IMG/VR virus record: IMGVR_UViG_3300027969_002881
Coordinates: 1 to 64,000 of that record
Reading direction: 5' to 3' (one strand)
DNA length: 64,000 nucleotides
Source of the DNA: a virus
Position numbers and translations under genes: made by a program. This document shows positions 20,901 through 49,753 of the stretch, in pieces (the stretch's first letter is position 1; each line of letters starts with the position of its first letter). The notes beneath the pieces are model-generated. The model searched no databases and was not told where the DNA came from. It saw only the letters and a list, made by a program, of their open reading frames with translations.

Positions 20901-21399
20901 TACAATAGGCCGTAAGGCTACAACTTATTTTATTGGTACAGAAGTAGAACGTACTGCTATGTATGGTGAACGTACATTGTTTGTAGTGGGTGTTCAGCCT
21001 GTGGATAAAATTGTTAGTTTACTTAATGAACATAAACTACGTCACATTTATCTTGGCACAAGTCAAAGTTTTACTCCCAAAGACTACGACGACTGGAAGG
21101 CATGGGATAAAATGATCATCGAATTACTAGAAGCTGGTTATTGGGTTACGTTAGACTTTGGCGTAGAATACGCCGATACATTTAACGAAGAGGGATGGAG
21201 TGAGTTCAATACATTTATTCCGATGATCAGTGTCAAACTTCCCTACATTAAACTATACAATTACAATGCTACATTAAAGATCGATGATACTACGTGGGGA
21301 CACAGTAACCCAGGAGTATGGTGTCATAGTCTACACGACTTAATGGATAGAAAAGTTTACACAGACTGGAAAGATTATGTAGGGGACGAAAATGTCTAA
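20890..21399 (+). CDS. Hypothetical protein of aquatic T4-like phages
   Basis: 169 residues from ATG 20890, overlapping the previous gene by 11 bases. MAIDTIGRKATTYFIGTEVE and later FNTFIPMISVKLPYI, GVWCHSLHDL are patterns I recall from cyanophage and related genomes without a function. Alpha/beta protein, probably soluble. Confidence 0.6.
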   Translation: MAIDTIGRKATTYFIGTEVERTAMYGERTLFVVGVQPVDKIVSLLNEHKLRHIYLGTSQSFTPKDYDDWKAWDKMIIELLEAGYWVTLDFGVEYADTFNEEGWSEFNTFIPMISVKLPYIKLYNYNATLKIDDTTWGHSNPGVWCHSLHDLMDRKVYTDWKDYVGDENV

Positions 21400-22450: not shown

Positions 22451-22893
22451 TGATTGTTATATATTTCTTATTATGGACGTTTACGTTGTACTGGATACAT
22501 CGTATTGGTCATAAAACGCCATTTGTAAAAAATTGGCACAGAGATCATCATAGTTACATAGTTAATTATGGATCACCGGGTTGGCAATGGAATAATTTAT
22601 TTTTGTTTAATGATACTTGGACTAGTACATTAGATTTATATGTAACCGAAGTTATTCCTACCCTACTGTTCAGTTTAATTACTGGGCAATGGTGGATCAG
22701 TGTATTCTATTATATATGGGCAGCCTTCTTCCAAGAAAGATTTGAACACAATAGTAACATAGATATGCCATTAGTTACTACAGGTAAATGGCATTTAATA
22801 CACCACCAGCAACCAACTAAGAATTACGGATTGTTCTTTCCCATATGGGATATATTATTTGGAACCTATAAACGTGTGGACCAGCGAAAATAA
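22450..22893 (+). CDS. Fatty-acid-hydroxylase/desaturase-superfamily membrane protein
   Basis: 147 residues, shorter than many family members. Histidine boxes are visible: HRIGH near 17, HRDHH near 29, and a C-terminal HLIHHQQPTKNYGLFFP followed by WDILFGTYKR, typical of di-iron sterol desaturase/fatty acid hydroxylases (PF04116). At least two membrane spans lie between. It would hydroxylate or desaturate a lipid chain. It is unusual in a phage and sits among sugar-metabolism genes. The ATG overlaps the glycosyltransferase stop. Confidence 0.8.
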   Translation: MIVIYFLLWTFTLYWIHRIGHKTPFVKNWHRDHHSYIVNYGSPGWQWNNLFLFNDTWTSTLDLYVTEVIPTLLFSLITGQWWISVFYYIWAAFFQERFEHNSNIDMPLVTTGKWHLIHHQQPTKNYGLFFPIWDILFGTYKRVDQRK

Positions 22894-23788
22894 TTGGTAT
22901 AAGTGGAGTTATGGCGCCATGGCTGCGTTTGAAAAACAAACCAGTGACTTGCCATTTAACACTAGTTACGACTGTGGCTTCGTTGGTGCCATTGGTTCTT
23001 TTAAAGAAGAACTTATAAGGGCGGCATCGAGTACACTAGATCATTATCCTGGATTAAAGCCATGTATATTCTTCAGTGGTGGGTCTGACAGTGAATTACT
23101 ACTGAGAACATATTTAGATATAGGATCAAATCCTGAAGTATATATTGTTAGGTATGAAAATGATTACAATATATACGATGTAAGCTATGCTATTACAATC
23201 TGTAATATATTAGGTGTTAAATATCATCTCATTGATTTTCAATTGGAAAAGTTTTATGATAGTGATGCTGAGAAAATATCTGAGCTTGCACAAATTGACA
23301 GGCCTAGAGCATTACCTTATTGTAAGTTTATGGAACTAGTTGACGGATTACCAATTCTAGGGCAAGGTGATCCACATTGGGTTAGATTGAATGATAATTA
23401 TTTACAGAAAGGTGAATGGAGATACCGAGACATGGAGGTATTTATTGGTTGGGACAAATACGCAAGATATTTAAACAGGCCAGCTATACCAGAATTTTTT
23501 AAATGGACGCCTGGTTTAATATTATCACATACTAAACTAGATTGGTTTAATAAATTGACAAATGATGAATACTCGGGCAAATTAGGTACTAATTCTACTA
23601 AATTGCAAGGTTACAAAGAAATATATTCAGACATGATTCACAGACAAAAACAAACTGGTTTTGAGAAAACCGACGCGATGATTAATAGTTTTGAACAATT
23701 TTTGTCAAAGAAATATAACGGTTTGCCTTATAGGCAACACCAAGATAGAACATTAGAAGAACTCAGGAAAGAAATATTAAATGATTAA
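22874..23788 (+). CDS. PP-loop ATP pyrophosphatase-like protein
   Basis: About 304 residues. FFSGGSDSELLLRTY is a clear PP-loop (SGGxDS), which binds ATP pyrophosphate in enzymes that adenylate a substrate (asparagine synthase, QueC, tRNA thiolation). It is not QueC-like in length or zinc cysteines. The start is unclear: TTG 22859, GTG 22874 or ATG 22919 are in frame; GTG with GGAA upstream is chosen. Two longer PP-loop proteins occur at 33 and 37 kb. Confidence 0.7.
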   Translation: MWTSENNWYKWSYGAMAAFEKQTSDLPFNTSYDCGFVGAIGSFKEELIRAASSTLDHYPGLKPCIFFSGGSDSELLLRTYLDIGSNPEVYIVRYENDYNIYDVSYAITICNILGVKYHLIDFQLEKFYDSDAEKISELAQIDRPRALPYCKFMELVDGLPILGQGDPHWVRLNDNYLQKGEWRYRDMEVFIGWDKYARYLNRPAIPEFFKWTPGLILSHTKLDWFNKLTNDEYSGKLGTNSTKLQGYKEIYSDMIHRQKQTGFEKTDAMINSFEQFLSKKYNGLPYRQHQDRTLEELRKEILND

Positions 23789-24125
23789 AATACAAAGTTA
23801 TACTACAAGTCCTAGTTGGTATCAAGTAGACACCAGTCATAATCTACCCACTGTTACTGGCGCGGTACAATGGAACGGTAACAGTAAATGTTTTGAAGTT
23901 AGTATTGGTAATAGTTGGCAACGTATTGATAATACTGTTCAAGTTTCTCATAATTATGATATGAATATGGTTGCTCAATGGGTAATGAAAAAGATGTCGG
24001 AGGAAGAAGAAACTAAGAAACTGCGTAGTAAATATCCAGCACTAGACGAAGCATACAATCACTTAGAACTGATCAAAGCATTAGTAACTGTAGGGCCGGA
24101 AACAAATGATATTCAACAAAATTAA
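23781..24125 (+). CDS. Hypothetical protein
   Basis: 114 residues. AVQWNGNSKCFEVSIGNSWQ is a beta-rich phage motif; the C-terminus is helical (EEEETKKLRSKYPALDEAYN). A similar SKYP helix recurs in the protein at 26.5 kb. May be a small structural or tail-associated protein. Overlaps both neighbours. Confidence 0.55.
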   Translation: MIKIQSYTTSPSWYQVDTSHNLPTVTGAVQWNGNSKCFEVSIGNSWQRIDNTVQVSHNYDMNMVAQWVMKKMSEEEETKKLRSKYPALDEAYNHLELIKALVTVGPETNDIQQN

Positions 24126-24567
24126 AAAGTTAAAAGAAGATGGATTAAAAGTTGGCATAACTTTCAGTACCTTTGACTTATTTCACGCAGGGCATGTAGC
24201 AATGTTATCTGAAGCAAAAAATCACTGTGACTACCTTATTGCCGCATTACAGACTGATCCTACAATAGACCGTCCTAATACAAAAAATCCTCCCATACAA
24301 AGTATTGTAGAACGACAGATACAACTCAGTACCAATCGTAATGTAGATGAAGTTGTTATCTATCAAACAGAAAAAGACTTAGAAGACCTCTTGCTTATTT
24401 TGCCTATTGATGTTAGAATACTTGGAGTAGAGTACGCAGACAAAGAATTTACAGGAAAACAAATCTGTACAAATCGAGGAATTGAAATTGTATTCAACGG
24501 CAGGGATCATAGTTTTAGTTCAAGTAGTTTGCGTAAACGTGTAGCGGAAGCAGAAAGTAAAAAATGA
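24106..24567 (+). CDS. TagD-like cytidylyltransferase
   Basis: 153 residues. STFDLFHAGHVAML holds the HxGH motif, and the C-terminal FSSSSLRKRV corresponds to the RTxGISTT-type KMSKS-like loop. This family makes CDP-glycerol or similar activated alcohols. It is a second member besides the gene at 11042 but differs in sequence. It overlaps the UDP-glucose dehydrogenase gene by 4 bases. Confidence 0.8.
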   Translation: MIFNKIKKLKEDGLKVGITFSTFDLFHAGHVAMLSEAKNHCDYLIAALQTDPTIDRPNTKNPPIQSIVERQIQLSTNRNVDEVVIYQTEKDLEDLLLILPIDVRILGVEYADKEFTGKQICTNRGIEIVFNGRDHSFSSSSLRKRVAEAESKK

Positions 24568-25370
24568 CAACAAAAATAGTAATTATTGGTTTAGGATTTG
24601 TAGGTAACGCTATCCACAAATCTTTAGATGGTTGGATGAGTAATGATACAATCAGTTTGATTGATCCGGGCAAAGGACTTAATACTCCTTATAGAGATAT
24701 CGAAGACTATGATGCTGCCTTTGTTTGTGTACCAAGTCCACAGAGCGCAGATGGTACTGCTGATACTAGCATACTAGAAAATGTATTGGCTACACTTGCC
24801 AGCGTTGACTTTAAAGGTGTAATCATTAGTAAAGTTACTGCACCACCTGGCGTTTATCAACGTCTACAAGAAAGTTATCCAAACTTAGTACACGCTCCGG
24901 AATTTTTAACTGCGGCCAATGCGGAAATAGATTATCGTAGTGGTAAGTTTGCTATTATCGGCGGTGCTGTGTCGGCATACAGAAACGAAGCTGAACGTAT
25001 TATTAAAATGACACAAACTAGTTTAAGTAGTGTTTTACATTGTAGTATTCAAGAAGCGGCATTGGCCAAGTATAGTATTAATTCTTTTCTAGCCACCAAA
25101 GTTGTTTTTATGAATGAGCTGGCATTGTTAGCCAACGAGTTAGACTGTGATTGGGAAACTATTCGTAATGCAATTACATTAGATAAGAGGATTGGGCAGA
25201 GTCATATGCAGGTACCCGGACCTGACGGTGATTATGGATTTGGTGGCATGTGCTTTCCAAAAGATACAACCGCATTACTCAAATGTGCGGAACAAGTCGA
25301 CGCAAAGCTAAGTGTTTTGGACACAGCAGTTAAAACTAACCTTATTTTACGCTTGACAGATCCTAAATAA
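24564..25370 (+). CDS. ugd: UDP-glucose/GDP-mannose dehydrogenase family, short form
   Basis: 268 residues, shorter than bacterial Ugd (about 390-450). GLGFVGNAI at 9-17 is the NAD motif, KYSINSFLATKVVFMNEL the central helix, and GFGGMCFPKD puts the catalytic Cys at 230. The C-terminal nucleotide-sugar domain is mostly missing, as in other phage versions. It would make a sugar acid for glycan modification, in line with the neighbours. Confidence 0.82.
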   Translation: MTTKIVIIGLGFVGNAIHKSLDGWMSNDTISLIDPGKGLNTPYRDIEDYDAAFVCVPSPQSADGTADTSILENVLATLASVDFKGVIISKVTAPPGVYQRLQESYPNLVHAPEFLTAANAEIDYRSGKFAIIGGAVSAYRNEAERIIKMTQTSLSSVLHCSIQEAALAKYSINSFLATKVVFMNELALLANELDCDWETIRNAITLDKRIGQSHMQVPGPDGDYGFGGMCFPKDTTALLKCAEQVDAKLSVLDTAVKTNLILRLTDPK

Positions 25371-25382
25371 TAGTGTATACTT
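25354..25382 (+). promoter_or_regulatory. Sigma70-type promoter TTGACA-17-TATACT
   Basis: -35 25354-25359 inside the end of ugd, -10 25377-25382, 17-base spacer. It would start transcription of folE. Confidence 0.7.
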
Positions 25383-25428
25383 AATACAACTGGCAACTAC
25401 CTCTGCCTTAACATAGGAAAAAATTATA

Positions 25429-26277
25429 ATGACAGCAACATTTAAAAAAGACGAATCCGTTCATGGAACAGCCTTTACATTTAAAAAAGACAACATTGTT
25501 GATACTGCGGAAATCAAAAACATGACTGAACCAGTAAAATTAGAAACAGGCCTGGACGCAATGGCAGGCGATGGCGGATACCAAGAAGAAAAGTATCTAG
25601 GAAACTATCTACGTTTTAAGATGAAACGTGACGGCAAAAGGTTCTGGGCAGGTGATAATATTAGTGAATATGTCAACGACCATAACAAAGAGCAACTGAT
25701 CGACGAAGCTGAAGAAGCATTTGAACTAGTGCTGGATCGTTTGCTTATTGACAGAGAGAACGATCCTAATAGTAAAGGTACCGCAAGACGACTTGCTAAA
25801 ATGTACTTTAATGAAATAATGGCAGGAAGATATGAACCAGCACCAGACGCAACAGCATTTCCAAACGACTCGCAGGATCGTTATGAGGGCATGTTGGTTG
25901 TTCGCAGTGAGCTTCGCAGTATGTGTAGTCATCATCATCAACCCGTTAGTGGCGTTGCTTATATTGGCATTATTGCCGCGGAAAAGCTCATTGGACTCAG
26001 CAAATACACAAGAATCGCACAATGGTGTGCCCGGCGAGGTACTCTCCAAGAGGAACTTGCTAATGACATTGCTAGGGAAATCGAAAAGGCCACGGGAGCC
26101 AAAAGCTTAGGCGTATATATACAAGCAGTACACGGGTGCTGTGAGAATCGTGGTATTATGGCACATAGCAGTCTAACACAGACCACAGTATTGAAAGGAT
26201 CTTTTAAAGAAGATCCGGGTGCAAAGAAAGAATTCTTTGACAATATTAAACTACAACAGGAGTTTGCTTCGCGATGA
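25429..26277 (+). CDS. folE: GTP cyclohydrolase I
   Basis: 282 residues; the extra 60 are N-terminal. SMCSHHHQPVSGVAYIG holds the zinc Cys and catalytic His residues, followed by LIGLSKYTRIAQWCARR and QAVHGCCENRG with the second Cys. It converts GTP to dihydroneopterin triphosphate, the first step of both folate and 7-deazaguanine synthesis. Here the QueD-like, QueE and DpdA-like genes argue for DNA modification. It has its own promoter. Confidence 0.92.
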   Translation: MTATFKKDESVHGTAFTFKKDNIVDTAEIKNMTEPVKLETGLDAMAGDGGYQEEKYLGNYLRFKMKRDGKRFWAGDNISEYVNDHNKEQLIDEAEEAFELVLDRLLIDRENDPNSKGTARRLAKMYFNEIMAGRYEPAPDATAFPNDSQDRYEGMLVVRSELRSMCSHHHQPVSGVAYIGIIAAEKLIGLSKYTRIAQWCARRGTLQEELANDIAREIEKATGAKSLGVYIQAVHGCCENRGIMAHSSLTQTTVLKGSFKEDPGAKKEFFDNIKLQQEFASR

Positions 26278-26483
26278 AAGATCCAGTAATAGAATCTAAT
26301 GCCAATGAATTAAAGTCATTAGTTGATCGAATTAATATTATTATGAGCGACCTACAAGATATGAATGTAGAAGTTAGGATTGCTTATATTGCCAAAGACG
26401 AGCCAGGACATCGTATTGATACAGATTCTGATAGACAGCGTATTAAACTTTGGAAAGTAGAAGAGCGTAATGGCTACATCTAA
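26274..26483 (+). CDS. Small hypothetical protein
   Basis: 69 residues. Helical N-terminus (ANELKSLVDRINIIMSDL) followed by beta strands. ATGA overlap with folE. No family recognised. Confidence 0.6.
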   Translation: MKDPVIESNANELKSLVDRINIIMSDLQDMNVEVRIAYIAKDEPGHRIDTDSDRQRIKLWKVEERNGYI

Positions 26484-26814
26484 GCCAGGCTATGGTGCTA
26501 TCCCGCCCGGCGGTACCAACGGATCCTTTCTAACTGCTAATGGCTTGAATGGTACTAATTGGTCAGCTCATAACATCCCGCAACATACTAATGCTGTTCA
26601 AATCGGTAATCCTGATCCTGTTATTACATTTAAATTGGACGGTGATATTGTTACCAAAGCAGGAACTATTACAGCAGATGATTGGATCTCTGTTATTAAA
26701 ATCACGAAACAGTTGATCATGGACATGAGCAATGATGAGGAATTAGTATCTAAATATCCATATATACGAGACGCGGCGCATATTTGGATGATGAACAAAC
26801 TTAAAGGAGAATGA
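26470..26814 (+). CDS. Hypothetical protein, Gly/Asn-rich N-terminus
   Basis: 114 residues. GYGAIPPGGTNGSFLTANG resembles short collagen-like or fibre-linker segments of phage virion proteins; the C-terminal half is helical (SVIKITKQLIMDMSNDEELV, then SKYPYIRD). Possibly a virion accessory protein. Function unknown. Confidence 0.55.
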   Translation: MATSKPGYGAIPPGGTNGSFLTANGLNGTNWSAHNIPQHTNAVQIGNPDPVITFKLDGDIVTKAGTITADDWISVIKITKQLIMDMSNDEELVSKYPYIRDAAHIWMMNKLKGE

Positions 26815-26815
26815 T

Positions 26816-26989
26816 ATGAACGAAAATATTAAACAACTAGCCATAGAGTGTTATAACCCTTATGGCAATTTTGACACCAAAAAGTTCGCCGAGTTGATTG
26901 TGCAGGCATGTGCTAAACGCTCAGAAGAACTAGGACAACCTGAACTAGGAACAGGATTAATGAAACATTTTGGAGTTGACCATGAGTAA
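26816..26989 (+). CDS. Small hypothetical protein (57 aa)
   Basis: ATG 26816 to TAA 26989, preceded by AAGGAGA. The translation begins MNENIKQLAIECYNP and ends HFGVDHE; a small alpha-helical protein. The next gene starts inside it at 26982. A clear ribosome site and tight spacing support it as real. Confidence 0.6.
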   Translation: MNENIKQLAIECYNPYGNFDTKKFAELIVQACAKRSEELGQPELGTGLMKHFGVDHE

Positions 26990-27155
26990 ATTTTTAAGTT
27001 GGTTTGAGCGTAATCGCAAATCCATTGGCTATGTAATCGGTGGCGTCAATTTAGGATCTGGCGTTGGACATATTATTAATGGCGATATTGCCAATGGTGT
27101 GGTATATGTTATATTAGGATTGGTACTAGTTTTAGATACAAGGATGTTCAAATGA
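26982..27155 (+). CDS. Small membrane protein (57 aa)
   Basis: ATG 26982 with TGGAG six bases upstream. Two hydrophobic stretches (GYVIGGVNLGSGVGHII, GVVYVILGLVLVL) with a basic N-terminus (FERNRK). Overlaps both neighbours. Function unknown. Confidence 0.6.
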   Translation: MSKFLSWFERNRKSIGYVIGGVNLGSGVGHIINGDIANGVVYVILGLVLVLDTRMFK

Positions 27156-27658
27156 GTAAAGTATATCTAATTAAGCCTCTACACAAGAAAAGTGTAGTAT
27201 GGCACGTAGAAATGTTTCGCGAAAATGCCGATGGTAGTATTAGCTGGTTTAACATTGACGAAACATATCGTTGGGGACAGGGCTTTATCGAAGAAGATCT
27301 AGACTGTAATCTTCCTTGGCAAGGTGACAATGTTGCTTACGCTCGAGCAGATGTAGGCTGGGGTTGCGAATTCGATGATAGTTGCAGTGTTGAATGGGAA
27401 TTCAGCGATGACATTCCAGAATTAGAACAACAAGAACTCAAAGAAGCATACTACGAAGGTGGTGCAGGTTGGTTGTATGATGGTGAACATGATTGGCAGG
27501 AAGAAGATTGTGCGGTACACATCATTGCACCATATCAAGTTGATTTGTGTGAAGAAGATGGTACGGTCATTGAAGAAAATATTAAACTTAAATCGCGGCC
27601 GGTAACAAGCAATGAATGGCCGTTTGTATTTCCAAAAGACAGCGAACAAGGAGGCTAA
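27152..27658 (+). CDS. Acidic hypothetical protein
   Basis: 168 residues, very rich in Asp/Glu and Trp (DVGWGCEFDDSCSVEWEFSD, EHDWQEEDCAVHI). No family recognised. Strong negative charge could mimic DNA, as anti-restriction proteins do, but there is no specific support. ATGA overlap upstream. Confidence 0.6.
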   Translation: MSKVYLIKPLHKKSVVWHVEMFRENADGSISWFNIDETYRWGQGFIEEDLDCNLPWQGDNVAYARADVGWGCEFDDSCSVEWEFSDDIPELEQQELKEAYYEGGAGWLYDGEHDWQEEDCAVHIIAPYQVDLCEEDGTVIEENIKLKSRPVTSNEWPFVFPKDSEQGG

Positions 27659-27659
27659 T

Positions 27660-27902
27660 ATGGCAACACGCAAAAAGAAATCAGATCTTATAGGTAATTC
27701 AAAAATTATACTATCAGAAACTAAAATAGTTAAAGAAAGTCATTTAACAATTACATACAATAATGGTTATCCTGAAAAATTAGAATGGGATGACGAGGCG
27801 TTGTTACGGGACGTTAGACTTGCTATTCTGACAGCAGAAAGTAAGATACCCGTAAGTGAAGAATCAAAAGAAAGATGGACGCAAGAAGCAGGCGGCCTAT
27901 AA
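27660..27902 (+). CDS. Small hypothetical protein
   Basis: 80 residues from ATG 27660, which follows AAGGAGG; the earlier ATG at 27612 lies within the previous gene. Basic start (MATRKKKSDL), beta-rich middle, helical end. Unknown. Confidence 0.6.
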   Translation: MATRKKKSDLIGNSKIILSETKIVKESHLTITYNNGYPEKLEWDDEALLRDVRLAILTAESKIPVSEESKERWTQEAGGL

Positions 27903-27909
27903 AATATAA

Positions 27910-28149
27910 ATGGGCAAGTCGCAACAACTGATATCTCTTAACTTTTGGGAATCCAAACAGTTAGAATATTGGATAGAAGATAATTTTCCAGATTGTCGAG
28001 TTCGTTGTCTTTACGATACTTGGAGTGATCCGGAGCAAAAAGAATGGTATGCCATAGAAGGTAATATTACACTTGACATGGAACTACTTCTGAAGTTAAA
28101 ATATGGTAATAAATTAAAAGGCTCTAACGCAGGAATAAGATATGGATAA
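27910..28149 (+). CDS. Small hypothetical protein
   Basis: 79 residues, starting MGKSQQLISLNFWES. Overlaps queE by 8 bases. No family recognised. Confidence 0.55.
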   Translation: MGKSQQLISLNFWESKQLEYWIEDNFPDCRVRCLYDTWSDPEQKEWYAIEGNITLDMELLLKLKYGNKLKGSNAGIRYG

Positions 28150-29002
28150 AATTAAAGTAAGTGAAATCTTTTATAGCGCACAAGGAGAAGGTCGATTTAT
28201 TGGCGTACCTAGTGTGTTCTTTCGAACATTTGGTTGTAACTTTAAATGTGGCGGTTTTGGCCTGCCCACAGGAGAAAAGACTACTGAGCCTGATGACATA
28301 GGCGCTAAAGTTCACTTGTATAAAACATTTATGGATCTGCCACTAGCACAAACTGGTTGTGATAGTTATGCTAGTTGGCATCCTGCATTTAAGCATCTAA
28401 GTCCTTATTATAGCATTGATGAAGCTATCGACGAGATGTTAAAGCTAACTCCCAACCATGCTTGGAAACAGGACAATGGCAATGACGTACATCTTGTCAT
28501 TACAGGCGGTGAGCCTTTACTAGGATGGCAACAACTATATCCAGATTTGCTAAGTGAAAACAAGATGCGCGATCTCGAAAACTTAACCTTTGAGACAAAC
28601 GGCACTCAACACTTGCATGAAGACTTTAAACGTTTCTTAACAAACGACTATCACTTGCGTAAAGATCAAATTACATTTAGTGTTAGCCCTAAGCTAAGTG
28701 CCAGCGGAGAATCTTGGAAAGACGCCGTCTGTCCAGAAGTAGTAGTAGAATATCAAACACGAGGTTTTACATATTTAAAGTTTGTTGTTGACAAGTTAGA
28801 GGACTTCAAAGAAGTAGATGCCGCAACAGCAGAATACAGAGAAGCAGGATTTAAAGGTCCTGCGTTTGTCATGCCTGTAGGTGGCACTGATGCCGCATAC
28901 TTTGCTAACAGTAAACACATTGCTGACATTGCTTTAGAACGAGGTTATCGATATAGTCCTAGACTACATGTAGACATTTGGAGTAATGGGTGGGGTAAGT
29001 AA
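28142..29002 (+). CDS. queE: QueE-like 7-carboxy-7-deazaguanine synthase (radical SAM)
   Basis: 286 residues. The start EIFYSAQGEGRFIGVPSVF is the QueE N-terminus. Cluster cysteines are in GCNFKCGGFG and then, 36 residues later, GCDSYASW, giving C-x3-C-x36-C instead of the usual C-x3-C-x2-C; the final Cys keeps the CDxxYA context. VITGGEPLL is the GGEP motif and FSVSPKLS also fits QueE. It makes CDG from the QueD product. It follows FolE and serves the same pathway as DpdA. Confidence 0.88.
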   Translation: MDKIKVSEIFYSAQGEGRFIGVPSVFFRTFGCNFKCGGFGLPTGEKTTEPDDIGAKVHLYKTFMDLPLAQTGCDSYASWHPAFKHLSPYYSIDEAIDEMLKLTPNHAWKQDNGNDVHLVITGGEPLLGWQQLYPDLLSENKMRDLENLTFETNGTQHLHEDFKRFLTNDYHLRKDQITFSVSPKLSASGESWKDAVCPEVVVEYQTRGFTYLKFVVDKLEDFKEVDAATAEYREAGFKGPAFVMPVGGTDAAYFANSKHIADIALERGYRYSPRLHVDIWSNGWGK

Positions 29003-32520: not shown

Positions 32521-32838
32521 ATGGCTAGACCGAAACCTACTATACTTTTAACATATACAGATCCAACAAGTTACAAAAGCGAAGAGATTTTAGAAGCTGA
32601 AGCCATCTATGCTGTTTTCTTTCAAGGTAAACCGTTTAATCTTAGAACACACTTGAACAGTTTACAAGACTATCCGGGTCCAAAATATAAAAAAGTAAGT
32701 TTTAGCAATTCAGGTCATGCGTTTAATCTAATGGAAAAGATGAATAAACTTTTTAAATGTAATGATTTTACTGTAGTGGAACTTTTACAAGGCGCCGAGG
32801 TCAATGAATATGACCTTATCAAAAGAGCAGATAAGTAA
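32521..32838 (+). CDS. Hypothetical protein under hairpin/late control
   Basis: 105 residues. MARPKPTILLTYTDPTSYKS with an alpha/beta pattern. No family recognised. First gene of the P450-containing operon; likely late because of the hairpin and octamer in front. Confidence 0.65.
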   Translation: MARPKPTILLTYTDPTSYKSEEILEAEAIYAVFFQGKPFNLRTHLNSLQDYPGPKYKKVSFSNSGHAFNLMEKMNKLFKCNDFTVVELLQGAEVNEYDLIKRADK

Positions 32839-33145
32839 ACTGGTTTTTGGTGAGATACAAAAATCAGTTGATACGCCATTGACCTTTTTTAGGGTTTATA
32901 AAAATAGCAAGGGAACAAGATTTACTGGCTTGGGTTTTGATCTAGCTAGTTTTTTATGGAAAACCTATACAGTAAAGCTTCCACAAGATTATAAAATTGC
33001 CAACAAAACTCTGCTAATGCTGGACAGCAGAATGGAATGGCCCTACTATCTTAGTAAGAAAAAACTTATATTATTCAGCGAAATGGATGCTTTTGAATTT
33101 ACTTTATACTCAGGTGATATAAATTTATGGGCGCACAAAGAATGA
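32804..33145 (+). CDS. Hypothetical protein
   Basis: 113 residues (ATG 32804 or 32810, after GAGG). Starts helical, then beta strands (RMEWPYYLSKKKLILFSE). Overlaps both neighbours. Unknown. Confidence 0.6.
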   Translation: MNMTLSKEQISKLVFGEIQKSVDTPLTFFRVYKNSKGTRFTGLGFDLASFLWKTYTVKLPQDYKIANKTLLMLDSRMEWPYYLSKKKLILFSEMDAFEFTLYSGDINLWAHKE

Positions 33146-34305
33146 ATGCCAATGGATATTATTCAGTCAATGGTATAGAATTTGACAACAAAATTACTGC
33201 ACTGATTCGTGCTTCAGAATTAAACACTGAAGTTAAATGGCATTACTTTGATAATGTATTTGAAACTGCGAAAAACAATAATTTATTAGTAGATACTAAC
33301 TTAGAAGAATTATACAAAATAAGAGCACAACAACTTAGAGACAGCTATGATTATCTTATTTTAAATTATAGCGGAGGCAGCGATAGTCATAATATATTAC
33401 ATGTGTTTTTAAAGAACAATATCAAATTAGATTGTATCTATATACAATGGCCCGAGCGGCTGATGGACAAAGGTCTGTTCAATGTTAACACCAACGACAA
33501 ATCTACATTTAACTTTCACAGTGAATGGGAACTAGTATTAAAGAAAGACCTAGAGTGGCTAGCACAATCACACCCAGAAATAAAGATAGAACTATTTGAT
33601 TGGCTGGACTGTGTCGACGAAAACTTTTATACTGATAAAATATTTGAACAGAATGTTAGTAACTTGCCCAGCATGGCAAGAAGTATCAAGCAAAATAATT
33701 ACAGTAAAACCGAAACAGAACTAGCTGGCAAGGGTAAACGAGTTGCCAGTATATTTGGTATAGACAAACCTAATATTGTAAAGCATCAAGGTAAGTGGCA
33801 TTACTTTTTCGCAGACACAGCATTCATGGCACAAGCGAATCCTGGAAATCCCCATGGGCTGGAATATTTTTATAATACTCCTGCATTTCCTGAATTAACA
33901 ACAATACAATGTAAGAAACTAGCCAAGTGGTATGATTCAAATCCCAGTCATTTGTATTTGGTTAAATCACGCACAGACAGAATCGCAGAAAATCCTGCTG
34001 TAGCAAATTTCACGCACAGGCAGAACATGGATGAGTACCATCAAATGGCAGAAATTGCCAAACTTGTGTGTTACCCTTACTGGGACTTTACTAGATTTCA
34101 AGCAGAAAAGCCGTTTAGTGTCTTGGATAACTTACAACTAGGTGTACGAGCCTGGGATAACATTTTACATGCTTTGCCAAAATTTAAAAGAGCACAACAA
34201 GCATGGGAATATCATTGGACCAGCTATTTAAATAATATAGACATTGCAAAGATGCGAAGCAAAGATACGGTACCCGTAATAAGATCAAAATATTATAAGT
34301 TATAA
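33142..34305 (+). CDS. PP-loop ATPase-like protein, first of pair
   Basis: 387 residues from ATG 33142 (ATGA overlap; ATG 33127 is less likely because the paralogue at 36817 aligns from here). The N-terminus NGYYSVNGIEFDNK and then LNYSGGSDSHNILHVF give the PP-loop. The rest aligns in pattern with the 36817 protein (IFGIDKP versus VWGTDKP). Such domains activate a substrate as an adenylate for amide or thio chemistry. Part of the P450/FabD operon. Confidence 0.72.
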   Translation: MNANGYYSVNGIEFDNKITALIRASELNTEVKWHYFDNVFETAKNNNLLVDTNLEELYKIRAQQLRDSYDYLILNYSGGSDSHNILHVFLKNNIKLDCIYIQWPERLMDKGLFNVNTNDKSTFNFHSEWELVLKKDLEWLAQSHPEIKIELFDWLDCVDENFYTDKIFEQNVSNLPSMARSIKQNNYSKTETELAGKGKRVASIFGIDKPNIVKHQGKWHYFFADTAFMAQANPGNPHGLEYFYNTPAFPELTTIQCKKLAKWYDSNPSHLYLVKSRTDRIAENPAVANFTHRQNMDEYHQMAEIAKLVCYPYWDFTRFQAEKPFSVLDNLQLGVRAWDNILHALPKFKRAQQAWEYHWTSYLNNIDIAKMRSKDTVPVIRSKYYKL

Positions 34306-34306
34306 C

Positions 34307-35494
34307 ATGGAACTTTTTAATCCACATTCCAATGATTGGTTGAAAAATAAATTTTCAATTTATAATGATCTCCGTAGTCGCGATACCGCGTATTGGAGCG
34401 ATACCTACAACATGTATATTATAACCAGATATGACGATGTTGTATTTGCGTTACATAATCCTGAAATTTTTTCGTCAGCCTATGGTAATCTTATTGTAGA
34501 GGATTCTCGAAGGTTTAATACAACGCTGGGTGCCAGTGATAATCCCACACATGATTTTCTAAAGAATATTGTAAGAAACGCTTATAGTAAAGACAACATG
34601 GATAGGATTACCTCATGCTTCTCTTATCATGCACGTCGATTATTATCGGATAAAGATAATCTAAATCTGTCAGATGTAATATCAGAGTTAAGTGCATGGT
34701 GTGTTGCAGAAATAATAAATTTTCCCTATGACAAAAAAGAAGTAGTGGATTTAATTATTGATATACAAAAGAAATCTAGTTTAGCAACAAACACTGATAT
34801 CGATGATAGTTCATATAAAAAATTTAGGCACATTTTAAAGAAACTATGGGTTTCTAAGACAGAGCCACATGGGCCGGGAATTTATAATGAGTTTTATTAC
34901 AATGATTCCATGGACCTTGATCCCGATGAACAGCACCCTAGATCTTCGTTGTTCATAGGACCTATAATCTCAGGAGCAAGTTCACTGGCTGGTGGATTAC
35001 AGTTTCTTACTTTAGATTTGTGTAGAAGCGGTAAATTACATAATTTATTAAATGACAAGTCACTAATACATTCTGCGGTAAATGAATCTTTGAGGTACAA
35101 TGCAAGTACAGGTAGGTTTAGTAGAACCGTTAATTCAGAGGTAGAATTACATGGCGTCAAATTAATGGCTGGCGACCGAGTTGCATTATGCCTGGATTCT
35201 GCCAATAGGGATCCTAGTGCTTTTACAAATCCAGATGTTTTTGATTTAGGTCGCCAGGGATCTAAATCCCTAGCTTTTGGGCACGGTATGCATGCCTGTA
35301 TTGCATTATCAATATCTAAAAACATTATGTCAACTTGGCTGGAATTGTTGTTTGATATATTTGGCAATTACCGCATAACGACATTGGACTCCGAGCTAGA
35401 ATATCTAATGACAGCATCCGGAAACAACGATTTGTTAACTAACCTACACCTAGAAAAGACGCAGAATATCACGAATAGTAATTCCTCAGCATAA
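34307..35494 (+). CDS. Cytochrome P450
   Basis: 395 residues, typical bacterial CYP length. ExxR is seen as E260-S-L-R263. The heme loop is FGHGMHAC at 324-331 with C331 as the heme ligand; the usual Gly two residues on is Ala (CIA). The helix-C region DNPTHDFLKNIVRNAY and the PERF-like segment NRDPSAFTNPDVFDLGR fit. The I-helix region (IISGASSLAGGL, 219-230) lacks the normal acid-Thr pair, so oxygen activation may differ. Soluble, no membrane anchor. No ferredoxin partner seen in the window. A P450 is very unusual for a tailed phage. Confidence 0.88.
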   Translation: MELFNPHSNDWLKNKFSIYNDLRSRDTAYWSDTYNMYIITRYDDVVFALHNPEIFSSAYGNLIVEDSRRFNTTLGASDNPTHDFLKNIVRNAYSKDNMDRITSCFSYHARRLLSDKDNLNLSDVISELSAWCVAEIINFPYDKKEVVDLIIDIQKKSSLATNTDIDDSSYKKFRHILKKLWVSKTEPHGPGIYNEFYYNDSMDLDPDEQHPRSSLFIGPIISGASSLAGGLQFLTLDLCRSGKLHNLLNDKSLIHSAVNESLRYNASTGRFSRTVNSEVELHGVKLMAGDRVALCLDSANRDPSAFTNPDVFDLGRQGSKSLAFGHGMHACIALSISKNIMSTWLELLFDIFGNYRITTLDSELEYLMTASGNNDLLTNLHLEKTQNITNSNSSA

Positions 35495-35497
35495 ATA
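35490..35497 (+). promoter_or_regulatory. Possible late promoter octamer CATAAATA
   Basis: One mismatch to TATAAATA, overlapping the P450 stop. Predicted +1 near 35503; AAGGAG at 35517-35522 follows before ATG 35528. Confidence 0.4.
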
Positions 35498-35527
35498 TAT
35501 ATAGTAACTAACCCCTAAGGAGATTAT

Positions 35528-35845
35528 ATGTTTTTAGTAACTAGAACACAAGTCAGACCCAACACGTCTGTAGAATTTTTTGGTCAAGATAATTCTGCTA
35601 TAACGCCCGAAGCTATCGCCCATATGCGTGAGAATTATATCACTACCGGCAAACAAATTAATTCTGATCGAATTGTATCAGAAGATGGATTAACTTTGAC
35701 TGTCGCTACGATTTGGCAATCAGAGGAAGCATTTAACGACTATAGAAATGACCAATTCGTAGTAGACAATCTAATTAACGTTAGCAACGCTTATTGCCAA
35801 GCTAATGGTATTGCTTCTACATTAGTCGGCAAAGAACAATTATAA
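35528..35845 (+). CDS. ABM-like alpha/beta-barrel protein
   Basis: 105 residues, size and pattern of dimeric alpha/beta-barrel (antibiotic biosynthesis monooxygenase-like) proteins: a first strand MFLVTRTQV, a helix, TLTVATIWQSEEAFNDYRND as the typical W-x-s-x-e-a-f segment, then a C-terminal helix. Family members oxidise polycyclic substrates or shape intermediates. The match is by pattern only. Strong AAGGAG site. Confidence 0.55.
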   Translation: MFLVTRTQVRPNTSVEFFGQDNSAITPEAIAHMRENYITTGKQINSDRIVSEDGLTLTVATIWQSEEAFNDYRNDQFVVDNLINVSNAYCQANGIASTLVGKEQL

Positions 35846-35860
35846 AATAATATTCCCGCA

Positions 35861-36820
35861 TTGTTTTCTGTATTTGATCAGCATCATATTTTTGTTGTGT
35901 TCAATCCTGGAAGTGGCGGGAATTTCCTTGCCGGAATCATTAACAACTTACTTAATTCAAATTTAACAGACTTAGATATATCCTCGACTGGCAGCAGTCA
36001 TACTGTATTGCGTGACAAATCAACTGGCACAGATTATCTATCATTTGGCACATTAATGGAGGAACATGACTCATTTAAGTCTGAAGAAGATCGTGAGCTG
36101 TTCTATCTAGAAAATATCAAGAAAACATATACATCGGAAAATAATAAACCCGAAGTTATATGGACACATGATTTTACAAACATTCCTCTTTACCGTAAAT
36201 ATTTTAAAAATTCTAAGATATTGGTTATTAACAATACATCACATGATGAACAGTTGACTGCACTGTTTATGTTGGCTAAGAAAACTCTTTTAGACAAAAA
36301 TTGCCTGTTGCCTATGTCAAGAGCCACATGGGAAATTGTCATGGAGAGATGGTCGATACATTGTATGAAGCAATTATTGCTGTTCAAGAACAGTGATGAT
36401 GCTATCAAAATGGTAAACGATCGTTTCAATGCTGAGTACAACAATGACCTACACTATGCAACTATAAGAATGATACTGGGCTTTTATGGCATGTTACACT
36501 TAGTAGAAGAAGTTCCAGCACAAAGAAGTGTATATGAATATGTTATATATCCTGCTACAAAAACAACAGGAAAAAGATTAGATCATTATGTCGACGATGA
36601 GTGTGTAATATTACCATACAACTATCTTTCCACTGGTGACTATGAGTTATTAGTTGAAAAGATATCTGCAACATTAGAACGACCACTGAACAGTGATGAG
36701 CTGGGTTACATTAGATCGTCTTTTGATAGGTATAGGTCGTGTCAAGATCAACTATTATTATCAAACCCCAAGAGTTACTATAAAAATTTAAGAGCCGCTG
36801 TATTAAATAAAGTACAATGA
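35861..36820 (+). CDS. Sulfotransferase-like P-loop protein, TTG start
   Basis: About 319 residues. FVVFNPGSGGNFLAGII near 12-28 resembles the PAPS 5'-phosphosulfate loop of sulfotransferases, and ILVINNTSHDEQLTALFM near 120 could be the 3'-phosphate segment. No ATG fits; TTG 35861 is used but lacks a good ribosome site, so the exact start is uncertain. It would add sulfate to a sugar or lipid. A different P-loop fold is possible. Confidence 0.5.
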   Translation: MFSVFDQHHIFVVFNPGSGGNFLAGIINNLLNSNLTDLDISSTGSSHTVLRDKSTGTDYLSFGTLMEEHDSFKSEEDRELFYLENIKKTYTSENNKPEVIWTHDFTNIPLYRKYFKNSKILVINNTSHDEQLTALFMLAKKTLLDKNCLLPMSRATWEIVMERWSIHCMKQLLLFKNSDDAIKMVNDRFNAEYNNDLHYATIRMILGFYGMLHLVEEVPAQRSVYEYVIYPATKTTGKRLDHYVDDECVILPYNYLSTGDYELLVEKISATLERPLNSDELGYIRSSFDRYRSCQDQLLLSNPKSYYKNLRAAVLNKVQ

Positions 36821-38055
36821 ACAAAACGGACCTAGGATATTACACCGTAAATGGTGTAAGTTTCAACACCAATAAAGTCGCGGCCATTTTAGAAGCACAA
36901 AGAGTAGGTGCCGATATAGAATGGCATTTCCATGATACAATCTTTAATTCTGTCGACTGGACTAAAGAACCTGAACCCTCACTGGACATGATGTACGAAG
37001 CCAGGGCGCGGCAAATCAGAGAAAAATATGATTATGTTATTGTATTTTGCAGCGGTGGTGCAGACAGTACGAATGTGATTAGAACATTTATGAATCATAA
37101 CATTCATGTTGACGAAGTTGTTGCAATGATTCCAGAATCTGGTCTAAACAACTATGATTCCAATGACAAAGATTTATCACCAACAAATCTGATGTCAGAA
37201 ACAAAATATGCACAATACCCAATTTTACATGAAGTATCTACACGTAGTCCAAGAACAAAAATTACGGTTATTGATATATTTAAAAATGTAGAGGCTGCAG
37301 AATCCGACTCGTGGATATTTGAAACTGAGGGTGATATGATCGATCTAGTAAGCCATAGTTATGGCAAATTAGATTCTGTGCCGCACTTAGTTGATATGGC
37401 GGAACGTGGTGTAAGTATTGCCGCTGTATGGGGTACAGATAAGCCGATTATTTCATTTATAGGTGATACTGTTGCTACTGTACTTGCAGATGGTCCCGCA
37501 TATCTGCCCAAATATCCGTTTAAAACAGCGTATCCAAATGTAGACAGAGTACTATTCTATTGGTCACATGATATGCCAGAATTAATGGTCAAACAGGCAC
37601 ATGTTGTTGCTAGAGAATTATTAAAGCCTGAAAATATAGCAGTTTATCAGGCTTGTATTGATATGACAAATTTCAGTAAAAGGCCACAGGTTGTAAATTC
37701 TGCAGATGATATTATTTCAAATATGCACAAGCCAAAATTTAATCCTGCAGGATACTATTCACCTAAGACAATTTTCCAACGTGGCATAGTACCATTTGTA
37801 TATCCAACAACCTGGGATAATAAAGTATTCCAAGTTAATAAATTTGATCTCACACAGACCTTCCTACCTGCGTTCGCAAGCTGGGTTTCAGAATTACATC
37901 TAGGGTCTAGGATAACTCAATTAATAGAAAGCGATTTCAAATCGTTCTATTCACAAATTTCACCAAAATACCTGAATCCAAATAAGTCAGGTTTTAGAAT
38001 GTGTGTTAAAATATTTCCTATTGGAAATAAATACAACTTTAAAAAGAAACTATGA
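36817..38055 (+). CDS. PP-loop ATPase-like protein, second of pair
   Basis: 412 residues. LGYYTVNGVSFNTNK then VFCSGGADSTNVIRTF carry the PP-loop. Shares its N-terminal and internal pattern with the 33142 protein, so they arose by duplication. ATGA overlaps on both sides keep it in the operon. Possible asparagine-synthase-like or amide-forming ligase; no glutaminase domain is present. Confidence 0.72.
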   Translation: MNKTDLGYYTVNGVSFNTNKVAAILEAQRVGADIEWHFHDTIFNSVDWTKEPEPSLDMMYEARARQIREKYDYVIVFCSGGADSTNVIRTFMNHNIHVDEVVAMIPESGLNNYDSNDKDLSPTNLMSETKYAQYPILHEVSTRSPRTKITVIDIFKNVEAAESDSWIFETEGDMIDLVSHSYGKLDSVPHLVDMAERGVSIAAVWGTDKPIISFIGDTVATVLADGPAYLPKYPFKTAYPNVDRVLFYWSHDMPELMVKQAHVVARELLKPENIAVYQACIDMTNFSKRPQVVNSADDIISNMHKPKFNPAGYYSPKTIFQRGIVPFVYPTTWDNKVFQVNKFDLTQTFLPAFASWVSELHLGSRITQLIESDFKSFYSQISPKYLNPNKSGFRMCVKIFPIGNKYNFKKKL

Positions 38056-38996
38056 AACAATTTAAAAAATTATTACTGTCATCTGTGCTGGCATTATCTA
38101 CACTGTTGTCTCATGCAGAACCCATCAAGTTAATAGTACCAGTGGCACCTGGCGGACTGGTAGACAATCTTGCCAGACTAGTTGCACCTGAACTAGCTAA
38201 AAAACTCAACACCACTATTGTAGTGGAAAATAAAGTAGGTGCCAGCGGATCTATTGGTACTGCATTCGTTGCAGGATCTGCTGCCAACGGTCAGACATTG
38301 GTAATAGGTAATAGCGGCACAATTAATGTGTACCCCATGTTGAATCCTGGCTTTGATGGATACAATTCAAAATCTTTTGTACCTGTATGTTTAATCGGTG
38401 GAGGCCCATTGGTATTAACTGCCAGTGGAGAAATACCTGCAACTAATTTAAAGGAATTACTGCAATACTTTAAAGAAAACCCAACTGCGGCAAGCTGGGC
38501 AAGTCCAGGAGTTGGAACACCACCGCACCTATTAGGCGAACAATTAAAATTTCAGTATAATATAAATTCCATGGTACATGTTCTTTACAAGGGCATGGCA
38601 CCAGCAGTGGCGGATGTTATAGGTAACAGAGTATCGTTGATGTTTGATCTATATGGTCCACAAATGGCGGGTCTAATTAATACGGGTAAATTAAAACCTA
38701 TCTTTGTAACAGACAGTAAACCTTTGGGAAATATCAGTGCCGCACCAGATGCATCTTTTCACGTAAGGGGCTGGCAAGGTTTATTTGTACCGGCAAGCAC
38801 TCCAGAATCAGTGTTAACAAAATTGCGGTCAGCTTGTGAAAGTGCCGTCAATGAATCTACAGTCAAGGACCAATTAGTTACACTAGGAACTCCGCCATTA
38901 AATATCAAGCCCAGTGATGCACAAAGCTACATTGACAATGATACTAAGAGATGGACTACCATTATTAATAGATTAGACCTCAAAGAAAAGAAATAA
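38052..38996 (+). CDS. Bug/TctC-family periplasmic solute-binding protein
   Basis: 314 residues. Signal peptide MKQFKKLLLSSVLALSTLLS with likely cleavage after SHA. IKLIVPVAPGGLVDNLARLV is the diagnostic Bug N-terminus, and ENKVGASGSIGTAFVAGSA and ASPGVGTPPHLLGEQ fit the ligand cleft. Bug proteins bind carboxylates for tripartite tricarboxylate transporters and are hugely expanded in Betaproteobacteria. A phage copy is unusual and could retune nutrient uptake or act as a carrier in this operon. ATGA overlap with the PP-loop gene. Confidence 0.92.
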   Translation: MKQFKKLLLSSVLALSTLLSHAEPIKLIVPVAPGGLVDNLARLVAPELAKKLNTTIVVENKVGASGSIGTAFVAGSAANGQTLVIGNSGTINVYPMLNPGFDGYNSKSFVPVCLIGGGPLVLTASGEIPATNLKELLQYFKENPTAASWASPGVGTPPHLLGEQLKFQYNINSMVHVLYKGMAPAVADVIGNRVSLMFDLYGPQMAGLINTGKLKPIFVTDSKPLGNISAAPDASFHVRGWQGLFVPASTPESVLTKLRSACESAVNESTVKDQLVTLGTPPLNIKPSDAQSYIDNDTKRWTTIINRLDLKEKK

Positions 38997-39001
38997 ACTT
39001 T

Positions 39002-39928
39002 ATGAGCTTTGCATTTATTTTTCCAGGACACGGATCCGAAATGGCAGTAATGTTGGATTCATTGTCTTCAAGACAGGAAGTAAAGGATACTTTACAGGAA
39101 GCATCTGACATACTAGGGAGAGACTTCAATAAAATAATTGAAGAAGGATTACAAACATCCTTTTCCTTGCTACCAACAGCGGCGCCCGCCATGCTCACTG
39201 CTGGTGTTGCTGGATTTCGGGCATGGCAGGCATCCGGAGGACAACAACCTAGCATTGTTGCCGGACACAGTCATGGAGAATATTCTGCGTTAGTAGCATC
39301 TGGTGTTCTTTCTTTTAAAGATGCACTGGAAGCAGTTCAATATCGTGCAACACTCATGCAGGCCATCAAAGGCAGCATGGCTGCTGTAATAGGGCTCAGT
39401 GCTGTTAAGGTCTTAGAGTTATGCGCTAATATTAGAGATGAAACGGGAAAAGTTGTTGAAGCTATTAACTTTAACGCACCAGGACAAATATTAATTTCAG
39501 GCGACAAAGAGGCAGTAGAGTCAGCCATTATTGCCGCTGATGCCGCAGGGGCAAAAATAACTCGTAGACTGGGACTTGCTGTTCCTGCACATTCTTCCTT
39601 ATTAAGACCAGTTTCAACAAAGCTACACGAGTACTTTCAACAAATAGAGTTCCGCACTCCGTTGATACCTATTATTAATAATGTTGATGTTGCTGTACTA
39701 ACCAATCCAATAGATATCAAAGATGCAATGGCTAGACAAGTTTCAAGGCCTGTTCGCTGGCAGAAAATTATAGAATCAATGTCGTCTCAGGGAATTAAAC
39801 AAGTGGTTCAATGTGGGCCTGGTAATGTTCTACATGAGTTGACTATACGTATTGATAAAAACCTACACAGTATGGCTATTGTGGATGAATTAACTCTCAA
39901 CGAAGTTCTGCGAACTTTAAATACATGA
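39002..39928 (+). CDS. fabD: Malonyl-CoA:ACP acyltransferase
   Basis: 308 residues, full FabD length. The nucleophile is S90 in GHSHGEYSALV (usually GHSLGE) and the partner is H197 in AVPAHSSLL. FPGHGS replaces the usual FPGQGS. FNAPGQILISG and QCGPGNVL also match. It loads malonyl (or another acyl) onto acyl carrier protein. No ketosynthase or carrier protein is seen, so it would rely on host partners or act on a different acyl donor. Very unusual in a phage. Confidence 0.93.
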   Translation: MSFAFIFPGHGSEMAVMLDSLSSRQEVKDTLQEASDILGRDFNKIIEEGLQTSFSLLPTAAPAMLTAGVAGFRAWQASGGQQPSIVAGHSHGEYSALVASGVLSFKDALEAVQYRATLMQAIKGSMAAVIGLSAVKVLELCANIRDETGKVVEAINFNAPGQILISGDKEAVESAIIAADAAGAKITRRLGLAVPAHSSLLRPVSTKLHEYFQQIEFRTPLIPIINNVDVAVLTNPIDIKDAMARQVSRPVRWQKIIESMSSQGIKQVVQCGPGNVLHELTIRIDKNLHSMAIVDELTLNEVLRTLNT

Positions 39929-40647
39929 CCAAAGAAAAATTAATTGACCTCTTTACTACGACAGGCTATGACGTTTTTAAAAATATTGTAGATGTTAAAC
40001 TTATAGAATCAATTAATAGAAAAGTAGATCTATTGGTGCCGCATCGTGGTCATGCCATGGATCACAAATACTACCCTGCTGATAAAGTAGCGGAATGTAA
40101 TGATCTGGCAGTGTGGTGGAGTCAAGAACTAAGCGGGTGGCCAGAGGTTCAAGAGATTACTCGTCAACTTATTGATGTAATTGGAGTAATGTTCGACGAA
40201 CCTAGCTCGTACATTGCAGACATCATTACCAATGAACCAGGTAATACGCATATCAAACCTCACATAGACAGTCCTTACCGATTCCCCAAATGGTGGAATG
40301 AAGATGAATTACTGGGCGTACAATGTATATTGCCATTGTGTGAATTCACCAAAGAGAATGGCAGTACTGGAGTGCTACCAAATAGTCATAATACTCGCTG
40401 GGTAGTCAAAGATAGTTATGCCGGAAAGTACAATGAAGAATTTTTGGCGGGTGTGGACCAACCAAAAATGGCACCAGGTGACGCACTAATTTATCATCCA
40501 CGCACACTTCACAGCACAATGCCAAATAATACTGATGTTCCACGTAGAGCTTTGCTTATCCATATAACCAGCAAAGAAATGGCTCGCCTGTTAAAATTGG
40601 AAGATACAATTTGGCAAGAAGAATCAAAAAAGATGTCATCTGTGTAA
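39925..40647 (+). CDS. PhyH-type Fe(II)/2-oxoglutarate dioxygenase
   Basis: 240 residues. H113-I-D115 in KPHIDSPYRF and H196 in HPRTLHSTMPN form the iron triad, with R207/R208 likely binding 2-oxoglutarate. GDALIYHPRTLHS is the typical second half. These enzymes hydroxylate acyl chains, amino acids or natural products. Last gene of the P450 operon; ATGA overlap with fabD. Confidence 0.85.
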   Translation: MTKEKLIDLFTTTGYDVFKNIVDVKLIESINRKVDLLVPHRGHAMDHKYYPADKVAECNDLAVWWSQELSGWPEVQEITRQLIDVIGVMFDEPSSYIADIITNEPGNTHIKPHIDSPYRFPKWWNEDELLGVQCILPLCEFTKENGSTGVLPNSHNTRWVVKDSYAGKYNEEFLAGVDQPKMAPGDALIYHPRTLHSTMPNNTDVPRRALLIHITSKEMARLLKLEDTIWQEESKKMSSV

Positions 40648-49043: not shown

Positions 49044-49753
49044 AATTCTTTCATTTTTTCCATATCATAATATAAATTAGGATCTTCATCCGGACAAGGA
49101 TTAAAATCACTTCTATTTATTTTAAATTCTTCTCCATTGATGATTCTGGTTAATAACTTAGCAAACACCAAATTATTTTCATCAGTGATGTGATTTTGTA
49201 ATCTAAGTCTTTCTAAATACATACGATTATCTGGAATACCAAAATGCTTTCTTTCTTCAACGTTTACGTAATCAAGAAAGAATTCTAATCCGCTATACTT
49301 CATAATTTCTATGTTCTTAGATTCACCTAATGACGGTAACATAATTAATTTTTTATCATTTTCAATTGATAATTTAACAATTTTTTCTATTAACGCTATA
49401 TGAACAAAATTGTCGAATTTAGAATCTTGTAAATGCAAATAATATTGTATCGCCGCTTTAAATAATTCTTGTTCTTTATGCTGATACGGCTCGCAAGTTT
49501 TCAATCTATATTCTACCGAAGAGAGATTTGGAATTGCTTCTTCGTGGTATAGTCTACCTGGGGCAGTGACTAAAAATACTATAATATCAAAGTTCTTATA
49601 ATTTTCTATAAATTTTAAATAAGAATAAAATAAACTTGTTCCTCTTCTGGCAAAATTTTCAACTTGACATCTGTTCATTGTAGATAGCAATGAACCCCAA
49701 CTTGTTAGACCAGTGCTGGCGGCATAGCTATCACCAAATATTGCTATTTTCAT
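49040..49753 (-). CDS. SGNH/GDSL-like hydrolase
   Basis: 237 residues. IAIFGDSYAAS is the N-terminal GDS block; later NHITDENN could supply the catalytic His/Asp pair region. The family removes acyl groups from lipids or glycans. Overlaps both neighbours by 4 bases. Fold assignment is by the first block only. Confidence 0.55.
   Translation of the reverse strand: MKIAIFGDSYAASTGLTSWGSLLSTMNRCQVENFARRGTSLFYSYLKFIENYKNFDIIVFLVTAPGRLYHEEAIPNLSSVEYRLKTCEPYQHKEQELFKAAIQYYLHLQDSKFDNFVHIALIEKIVKLSIENDKKLIMLPSLGESKNIEIMKYSGLEFFLDYVNVEERKHFGIPDNRMYLERLRLQNHITDENNLVFAKLLTRIINGEEFKINRSDFNPCPDEDPNLYYDMEKMKEL

Follow-up and report, generated by a model that had tools for sequence, protein, structure and literature searches.

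We analysed the first 64,000 nucleotides (nt) of the virus record IMGVR_UViG_3300027969_002881, referred to here as the window; the whole record is 127,886 bp long, so that the window is its first half. At positions 32521-40647, ten open reading frames (ORFs) follow one another on the + strand, and neighbouring frames overlap or lie ≤33 nt apart (intergenic distances -35, -19, +1, +33, +15, -4, -4, +5, and -4 nt). A preliminary description, made from the sequence alone, had read this region as a single operon for an eight-enzyme natural-product or lipid-modification pathway. The tight same-strand packing agrees with that reading, but the first two genes and the last one are core genes of the phage and lie outside the variable part. 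The seven genes between them (33127-39928; PPB1-P450-small protein-ST-PPB2-BUG-FabD) form a cassette that is intact, recurrent, conserved in order, and under purifying selection. The genes discussed below are as follows.

32521-33145, + strand: two core phage genes (32521-32838 and 32804-33145), left border of the slot, outside the cassette; conserved in all relatives with or without the cassette
33127-34305, + strand: PPB1, predicted PP-loop-type ATPase, clade B1 (SGGSDS, fold search, tree)
34307-35494, + strand: predicted cytochrome P450 (Pfam 1.8e-13; profile comparison with 8fbc; invariant catalytic residues)
35528-35845, + strand: small 105-aa protein of a phage family, adjoining the P450 (27 members by clustering)
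35861-36820, + strand: ST, predicted sulfotransferase-fold protein (AlphaFold2 (AF2) model and Foldseek; N-terminal PG..GNF loop)
36817-38055, + strand: PPB2, predicted PP-loop-type ATPase, clade B2 (SGGADS, tree; paired with ST and organic-acid binding proteins)
38052-38996, + strand: predicted BUG/TctC periplasmic substrate-binding protein with signal peptide (Pfam 6.9e-41)
39002-39928, + strand: FabD/MdcH-type acyltransferase (TIGR00128 8e-77; GHSHGE, PAHS)
39925-40647, + strand: PhyH-type 2-oxoglutarate dioxygenase, core gene, right border of the slot (Pfam 1.1e-14)
22450-23788, + strand: FA_hydroxylase gene (22450-22893; Pfam FA_hydroxylase 2.2e-17) and gene for PP-loop protein A, PPA (22859-23788), a core pair

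At the DNA level, the slot starts where 32804 ends and is overlapped by the next frame. In two relatives, G016 (locus L058) and G021 (locus L060), the slot is without cargo, and the 32804 homologue is followed directly by the PhyH homologue (protein identities of the 32804/PhyH homologues, 93/90% and 80/74%, respectively). Four others carry different fillings: PPB2-BUG-small protein-ST in G020; PPB2-BUG-small-type protein, running to the contig end, in G012; PPB genes, TctC-like proteins, a further PP-loop protein, and a small protein in G017; and PPB1 followed by a cupin-like gene in L009. Because the slot is empty or differently filled in relatives, 32521, 32804, and PhyH belong to the core of the phage genus, whereas 33127-39928 is exchangeable cargo. 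The PhyH protein has the expected catalytic motifs (HID at 113 and HST at 196), and its identity as a dioxygenase stands; as a step of the proposed pathway it is rejected, since it is a core gene present also where the cassette is absent. An assembly chimera is likewise rejected, as the 32804/PPB1 junction recurs in the independent contig L009 (PPB1 88% identical) and the 32804/PPB2 junction in G012 and G020. Nor are the genes broken: the frames are open, also in relatives, and ratios of nonsynonymous to synonymous substitution rates (dN/dS) are well below 1.

A search of 2.9 million viral contigs for P450, PPB, and ST gives 37 distinct PPB genes and 15 distinct ST genes, and 16 distinct members of the P450 family are 41-58% identical to the window P450 (aligned set). 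The core of the set recurs in distant uncultured phages. In particular, L010 and L011 have PPB-small-P450-small-ST-PPB-BUG, L085 and L089 have P450-small-ST-PPB, and longer versions occur in L025 and L055; the order P450-small-ST-PPB2 is retained in four distant uncultured phages. Within 6 kb of the 15 distinct ST loci lie PPB (13/15), the small family (11/15), a TctC-like binding protein (10/15), and P450 (7/15). Seven distinct loci are new from the ST search, and five of them have PPB and four the small family. The dN/dS values are 0.037 (versus L009) and 0.17 for PPB1, 0.076-0.094 for P450, and 0.23 for BUG, where dS is saturated. A desaturase gene (FA_desaturase 9e-15) and FA_hydroxylase genes lie directly before PPA and PPB1 in several phages, not at the window slot. 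Upstream of the cassette in L010 (L010:971-9998), a region unusually rich in oxygenases for a phage encodes PP-loop proteins, three fatty acid (FA) desaturases, and GNAT-like, 2-oxoglutarate-dependent-like, sulfotransferase-like (Pfam E 0.0013), and Rieske-domain (1.7e-6) proteins.

The DNA polymerase of the record (window 12717-15362) belongs to the T4 superfamily, and in GenBank it is closest to the polymerases of Phosso and Atu_ph07, both jumbo phages (47-49% identity). By its sequence, the record is that of a T4/jumbo-type phage, and because the polymerase relatives are jumbo phages, it probably covers only part of a larger genome. The 127,886-bp record itself gives no match for a T4-type portal or terminase; both are present in the close relative G016 (233 kb, polymerase 93% identical) and in the cassette-bearing G001 (349 kb; the record of L002). 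The polymerase and the QueE-like protein of G001 are each 55% identical to those of the window phage. Therefore, the cassette has crossed deep phage lineages. No RNA families are found in the window, and promoter-like matches there are near chance level.

For the products of 32521, 32804, 33127, 35528, 35861, and 36817, searches of Pfam, PHROGs, and NCBIfam give no convincing family. PPB1 (SGGSDS) and PPB2 (SGGADS) are paralogues with 27% identity, and the SGG.DS core is invariant across 25 PPB members. Pfam gives no match for either protein, with weak family E-values. The AF2 model of PPB (predicted local distance difference test score, pLDDT, 88) has its best Foldseek matches among PP-loop ATPases (MnmA/TilS/LarE); PP-loop enzymes mostly stand on top, but full-length likeness is weak, and some unrelated methyltransferases score equally. 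Motif and predicted fold thus place PPB1 and PPB2 in the PP-loop ATP pyrophosphatase superfamily, in agreement with the preliminary call of two PP-loop ATPases. Like MnmA, TilS, LarE, NadE, QueC, and asparagine synthetase, PPB has the SGG.DS loop and the predicted ATP-binding domain fold; unlike them, it has no sequence-level family, has a 390-aa architecture, and is almost confined to phages. The PPB tree has two old clades, B1 and B2, retained together in the window, L010, L025, and L055. PPA is a relative of PPB, and its profile resembles NadE and QueC. When PPB and PPA are compared with AsnB, QueC, TilS, NadE, GuaA, and ArgG, every match is short and covers the P-loop only. PPA lies upstream of PPB in five loci; the FA_hydroxylase-PPA pair is 64-65% identical in L002 and stands there directly before PPB1. 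Elsewhere, PPB genes adjoin genes for TctC-like or DctP organic-acid binding proteins. A nitronate-monooxygenase-family protein (L015:2996-3973, Pfam 8.7e-19; L018:9218-10126) and a further PP-loop-like family (F98) also adjoin some PPB genes.

The product of 34307-35494 is predicted to be a cytochrome P450, as proposed earlier, with a haem-ligand FxxGxHxC motif (FGHGMHAC at 324, C331) and an ExxR motif (ESLR at 260). C331 and E260xxR263 are invariant in the 16 members. The best solved relative of the family is P450-T2 (CYP203A, PDB 8fbc; profile A4, E 7e-60). The phage P450 resembles P450-T2 and CYP203A1 in the helix B-C stretch (SSA.GNL.E..R.G.TLG.SD.P.H) and in the I-helix serine. It differs in that the I-helix acid is replaced (AGVES of P450-T2 aligns with SGASS, Ser226 being kept) and in forming a phage family of its own. 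Membership of a CYP subfamily by convention takes at least ~55% identity to its members. The closest plasmid P450 is only ~31% identical, so that membership of CYP203A is unlikely. By its sequence, the phage P450 is probably a new family with CYP203A as its best solved relative. Aromatic compounds, among them 4-hydroxybenzoic acid and L-mimosine, are ligands of CYP203A enzymes (PMC7780096). Eight of the 16 distinct phage P450s lie in cassettes, each with the small gene adjacent (8/8), and the other eight lie outside; these counts leave out L004, which has a different P450. A supported sub-clade of the same P450 family (L020-L024 and L029-L034, e.g. L024:10007-11164) occurs as a single gene inside a T4-like virion cluster, without PPB or the small family. 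Next to it stand genes that look like those for both terminase subunits, the sheath, the tube, and the portal, of which portal and terminase are confirmed in G006 and G007.

The small protein had been called similar to antibiotic biosynthesis monooxygenases (ABM). This identity is unsupported: none of 16 members matches ABM, and the hhalign comparison with E. coli YgiN is no better than negative controls. The sulfotransferase call for ST holds at the level of the predicted fold, not at the level of sequence. The AF2 model (pLDDT 86) has 3'-phosphoadenosine-5'-phosphosulfate (PAPS) sulfotransferases as top Foldseek matches (probability 1.00, but E 1.3e-3 and TM-score 0.36), and ST appears to share with TPST1/2 and SULT the predicted fold and the N-terminal phosphate-binding loop. 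Unlike these enzymes, ST has no Pfam match, and the arginine of the 3'-phosphate motif is not evident in alignment A6, where the residue after strand ILVI is N, T, or Q in all seven rows (by eye; another register is possible).

The product of 38052-38996 has a full-length TctC domain (residues 41-310) and an N-terminus, MKQFKKLLLSSVLALSTLLSHA, that reads as a signal peptide, and is predicted to be a BUG/TctC binding protein, as the preliminary description had it. The BUG family profile is closest to the terephthalate-binding protein (5e-74). FabD is recognisable as an acyltransferase of FabD/MdcH type: the protein scores 258.5 bits with TIGR00128, just below the cut-off of 260.9, and has the catalytic motifs GHS88HGE (start 88) and PAHS (at 195). 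Acyl loading as a general step is unsupported. FabD is found in 0/32 other virus records searched and only in the cassette version of the window phage, and a pattern search of viral contigs gives no relatives; GenBank matches labelled 'phage' reach 38% at most. No acyl carrier protein (ACP; PF00550) matches in the 127,886-bp record, with positive controls; an ACP of the host might take its place, and the record is probably incomplete. Acyl loading is thus at most an add-on of the window phage. Similarly, no ferredoxin (Fer2) matches in the record.

PPB, P450, PPA, the small family, and ST have no match among 50,697 GenBank phages, and PPB has none in 72,556 plasmids. Among 84,980 prokaryote genomes, searched with one peptide pattern of limited sensitivity, PPB is found in one small contig of a metagenome-assembled genome (MAG), and a profile search of 369 same-class (gammaproteobacterial) genomes finds full PPB only in that same MAG. 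The contig (L065:3-3155; 3.1 kb, Methylococcaceae) has tandem PPB genes and a DctP (tripartite ATP-independent periplasmic transporter) binding protein seemingly without a signal peptide, and may itself be viral, in a bin. No P450 in the 369 genomes is over threshold, in a search without a positive control. A recent transfer of P450 or PPB from bacteria is unlikely, given the single PPB contig, the ~31% identity of the best plasmid P450, and no PPB on plasmids. Because PPB is nearly absent from sequenced bacteria, host homology cannot reveal its function.

The statement that no phage pathway with such a set had been described agrees with our search of the open-licence PubMed Central literature, which covers few subscription papers and preprints and yields no such cassette. 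Phage metabolic cargo is already known, and, as in auxiliary metabolic gene islands, the genes lie in a variable slot between core genes. In contrast to such islands, the cassette is an ordered multi-gene module around a nearly phage-only ATPase family, rather than copied host central-metabolism genes, and this defined module is what is new. In that literature, phage P450s are reported from almost nowhere; one is reported from Mycobacterium phage Adler (PMC9405906, which cites earlier work), likewise phage-encoded. It differs in that GenBank phages have no member of the window P450 family at E 1e-3, and that paper describes no such cassette. What is seen in the present set of uncultured large phages is a conserved, exchangeable module made up of a P450 family, both PPB clades, and their partners.

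Gene content, order, selection, and slot make it very probable that 33127-39928 is a co-functional phage cassette. What survives of the pathway reading is a coherent multi-enzyme metabolic cassette, not an eight-enzyme pathway. From the protein families we infer each chemical step, the order of steps, the substrate, and the product of a scheme of acid capture, ATP activation, oxidation, and transfer. Outside the inner membrane, the secreted BUG protein would bind an organic acid, which may be aromatic. In the cytoplasm, the carboxylate or amide of this acid or its conjugate would be adenylated at the expense of ATP by one of the PP-loop proteins or by both. The P450 would oxidise the acid with electrons from a host ferredoxin and reductase, perhaps assisted by the small neighbour, and the sulfotransferase-fold protein would transfer sulfate or another group. 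In the window phage, FabD could draw on host pools to attach a malonyl or acyl group. Infection would then yield a modified small molecule or part of a lipid. The organic-acid scheme gains from the P450 relatives and the BUG relatives, which independently point to aromatic or small organic acids; the sulfotransferase-type step is weaker than capture, activation, and oxidation. We hold this chemistry as tentative and rather doubtful. As a whole, the view that a jumbo-type phage carries, at a fixed position with variable content, a swappable metabolic cassette whose core is one functional unit working by this scheme seems to us evenly balanced between right and wrong.

Several points weigh against that view. 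Fold matches are weak over the full length (TM-score about 0.25-0.4), neither PPB nor ST is known to Pfam, and the window ST is without an evident 3'-phosphate arginine. The co-occurrence counts carry search bias, several loci having been found with PPB or P450 queries. Half of the phage P450s (8/16) occur without the cassette, BUG and FabD are variable parts, and neither ferredoxin nor ACP is detected in the record. A rival reading is a hot spot at which same-habitat recombination gathers individually useful or neutral genes with no shared pathway: slot contents differ strongly among close relatives, FabD is unique to the window, P450 is also found alone, and BUG and cupin-like parts come and go. 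Such a cargo island is nevertheless unlikely, given the identical order in distant phages with different flanks, the P450-small gene adjacency (8/8), the joint retention of PPB1 and PPB2, and the strong purifying selection.

Lipid chemistry is the main chemical rival, because several other phages have genes for desaturases and a hydroxylase next to the module. Desaturases, FA hydroxylase, PP-loop proteins, and P450 would then act on host membrane lipids or fatty acids, e.g. against superinfection or for virion release. The position of FA_desaturase and FA_hydroxylase genes directly before PPA and PPB1 fits, as do the core FA_hydroxylase-PPA pair of the window genus and FabD in the window. The lipid-modification proposal thus has indirect support, from the desaturase and hydroxylase neighbours in other phages rather than from the window slot. 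At that slot, FabD is the only lipid gene. In addition, proteins related to the P450 and to BUG have small aromatic acids as ligands, and the ST-PPB2-binding protein cassettes of L013, L080, and L083 have no desaturases in the stretch seen, so that we consider lipid modification improbable. A conjugation of nucleobases or proteins, with the PP-loop proteins as QueC- or TilS-type ligases on 7-deazaguanine-type phage DNA or on proteins and the other enzymes tailoring, is very unlikely. The PPA profile (NadE, QueC) and the PPB model (TilS/MnmA/LarE) point that way, and the phage has FolE and a QueE-like gene, the latter also in the cassette-bearing G001. However, the similarity to PP-loop enzymes spans a short stretch and is not specific, neither a P450 nor a secreted binding protein fits such a pathway well, and the QueE-like gene is not found in most other cassette-bearing records, which are possibly fragments.

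On a bolder reading, uncultured large phages may share an undescribed biosynthetic pathway of their own, with a phage-born PP-loop ligase family, a P450, a small partner, and sulfotransferase-fold steps, whose new small molecule would act on the host, on competitors, or on the environment. We regard this reading as possible, with considerable reservation. Should a metabolite be made, phages would not just borrow pathways from their hosts but produce specialised chemistry themselves. Close relatives, some with the slot empty and others with it filled, offer a natural test of the effect of the cassette.

The window phage has other enzyme clusters. A second, much larger one (window 49750-63694) encodes eight radical-SAM proteins, a nitroreductase, and an Asp/Arg hydroxylase-type protein, and apparently continues to ~94 kb of the record, with SPASM-like, glycosyltransferase-like, and SGNH-like proteins (by eye only). 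At window 16782-28999 lie FolE (25429) and a QueE-like radical-SAM gene (28142) and, by eye, TGT/DpdA-like (17574) and QueD-like (16782, Pfam silent) genes, possibly a 7-deazaguanine DNA modification set. Around them are GFO/IDH/MocA, ADH-like, cytidylyltransferase-like, and UDP-sugar dehydrogenase genes, which are core in the genus.

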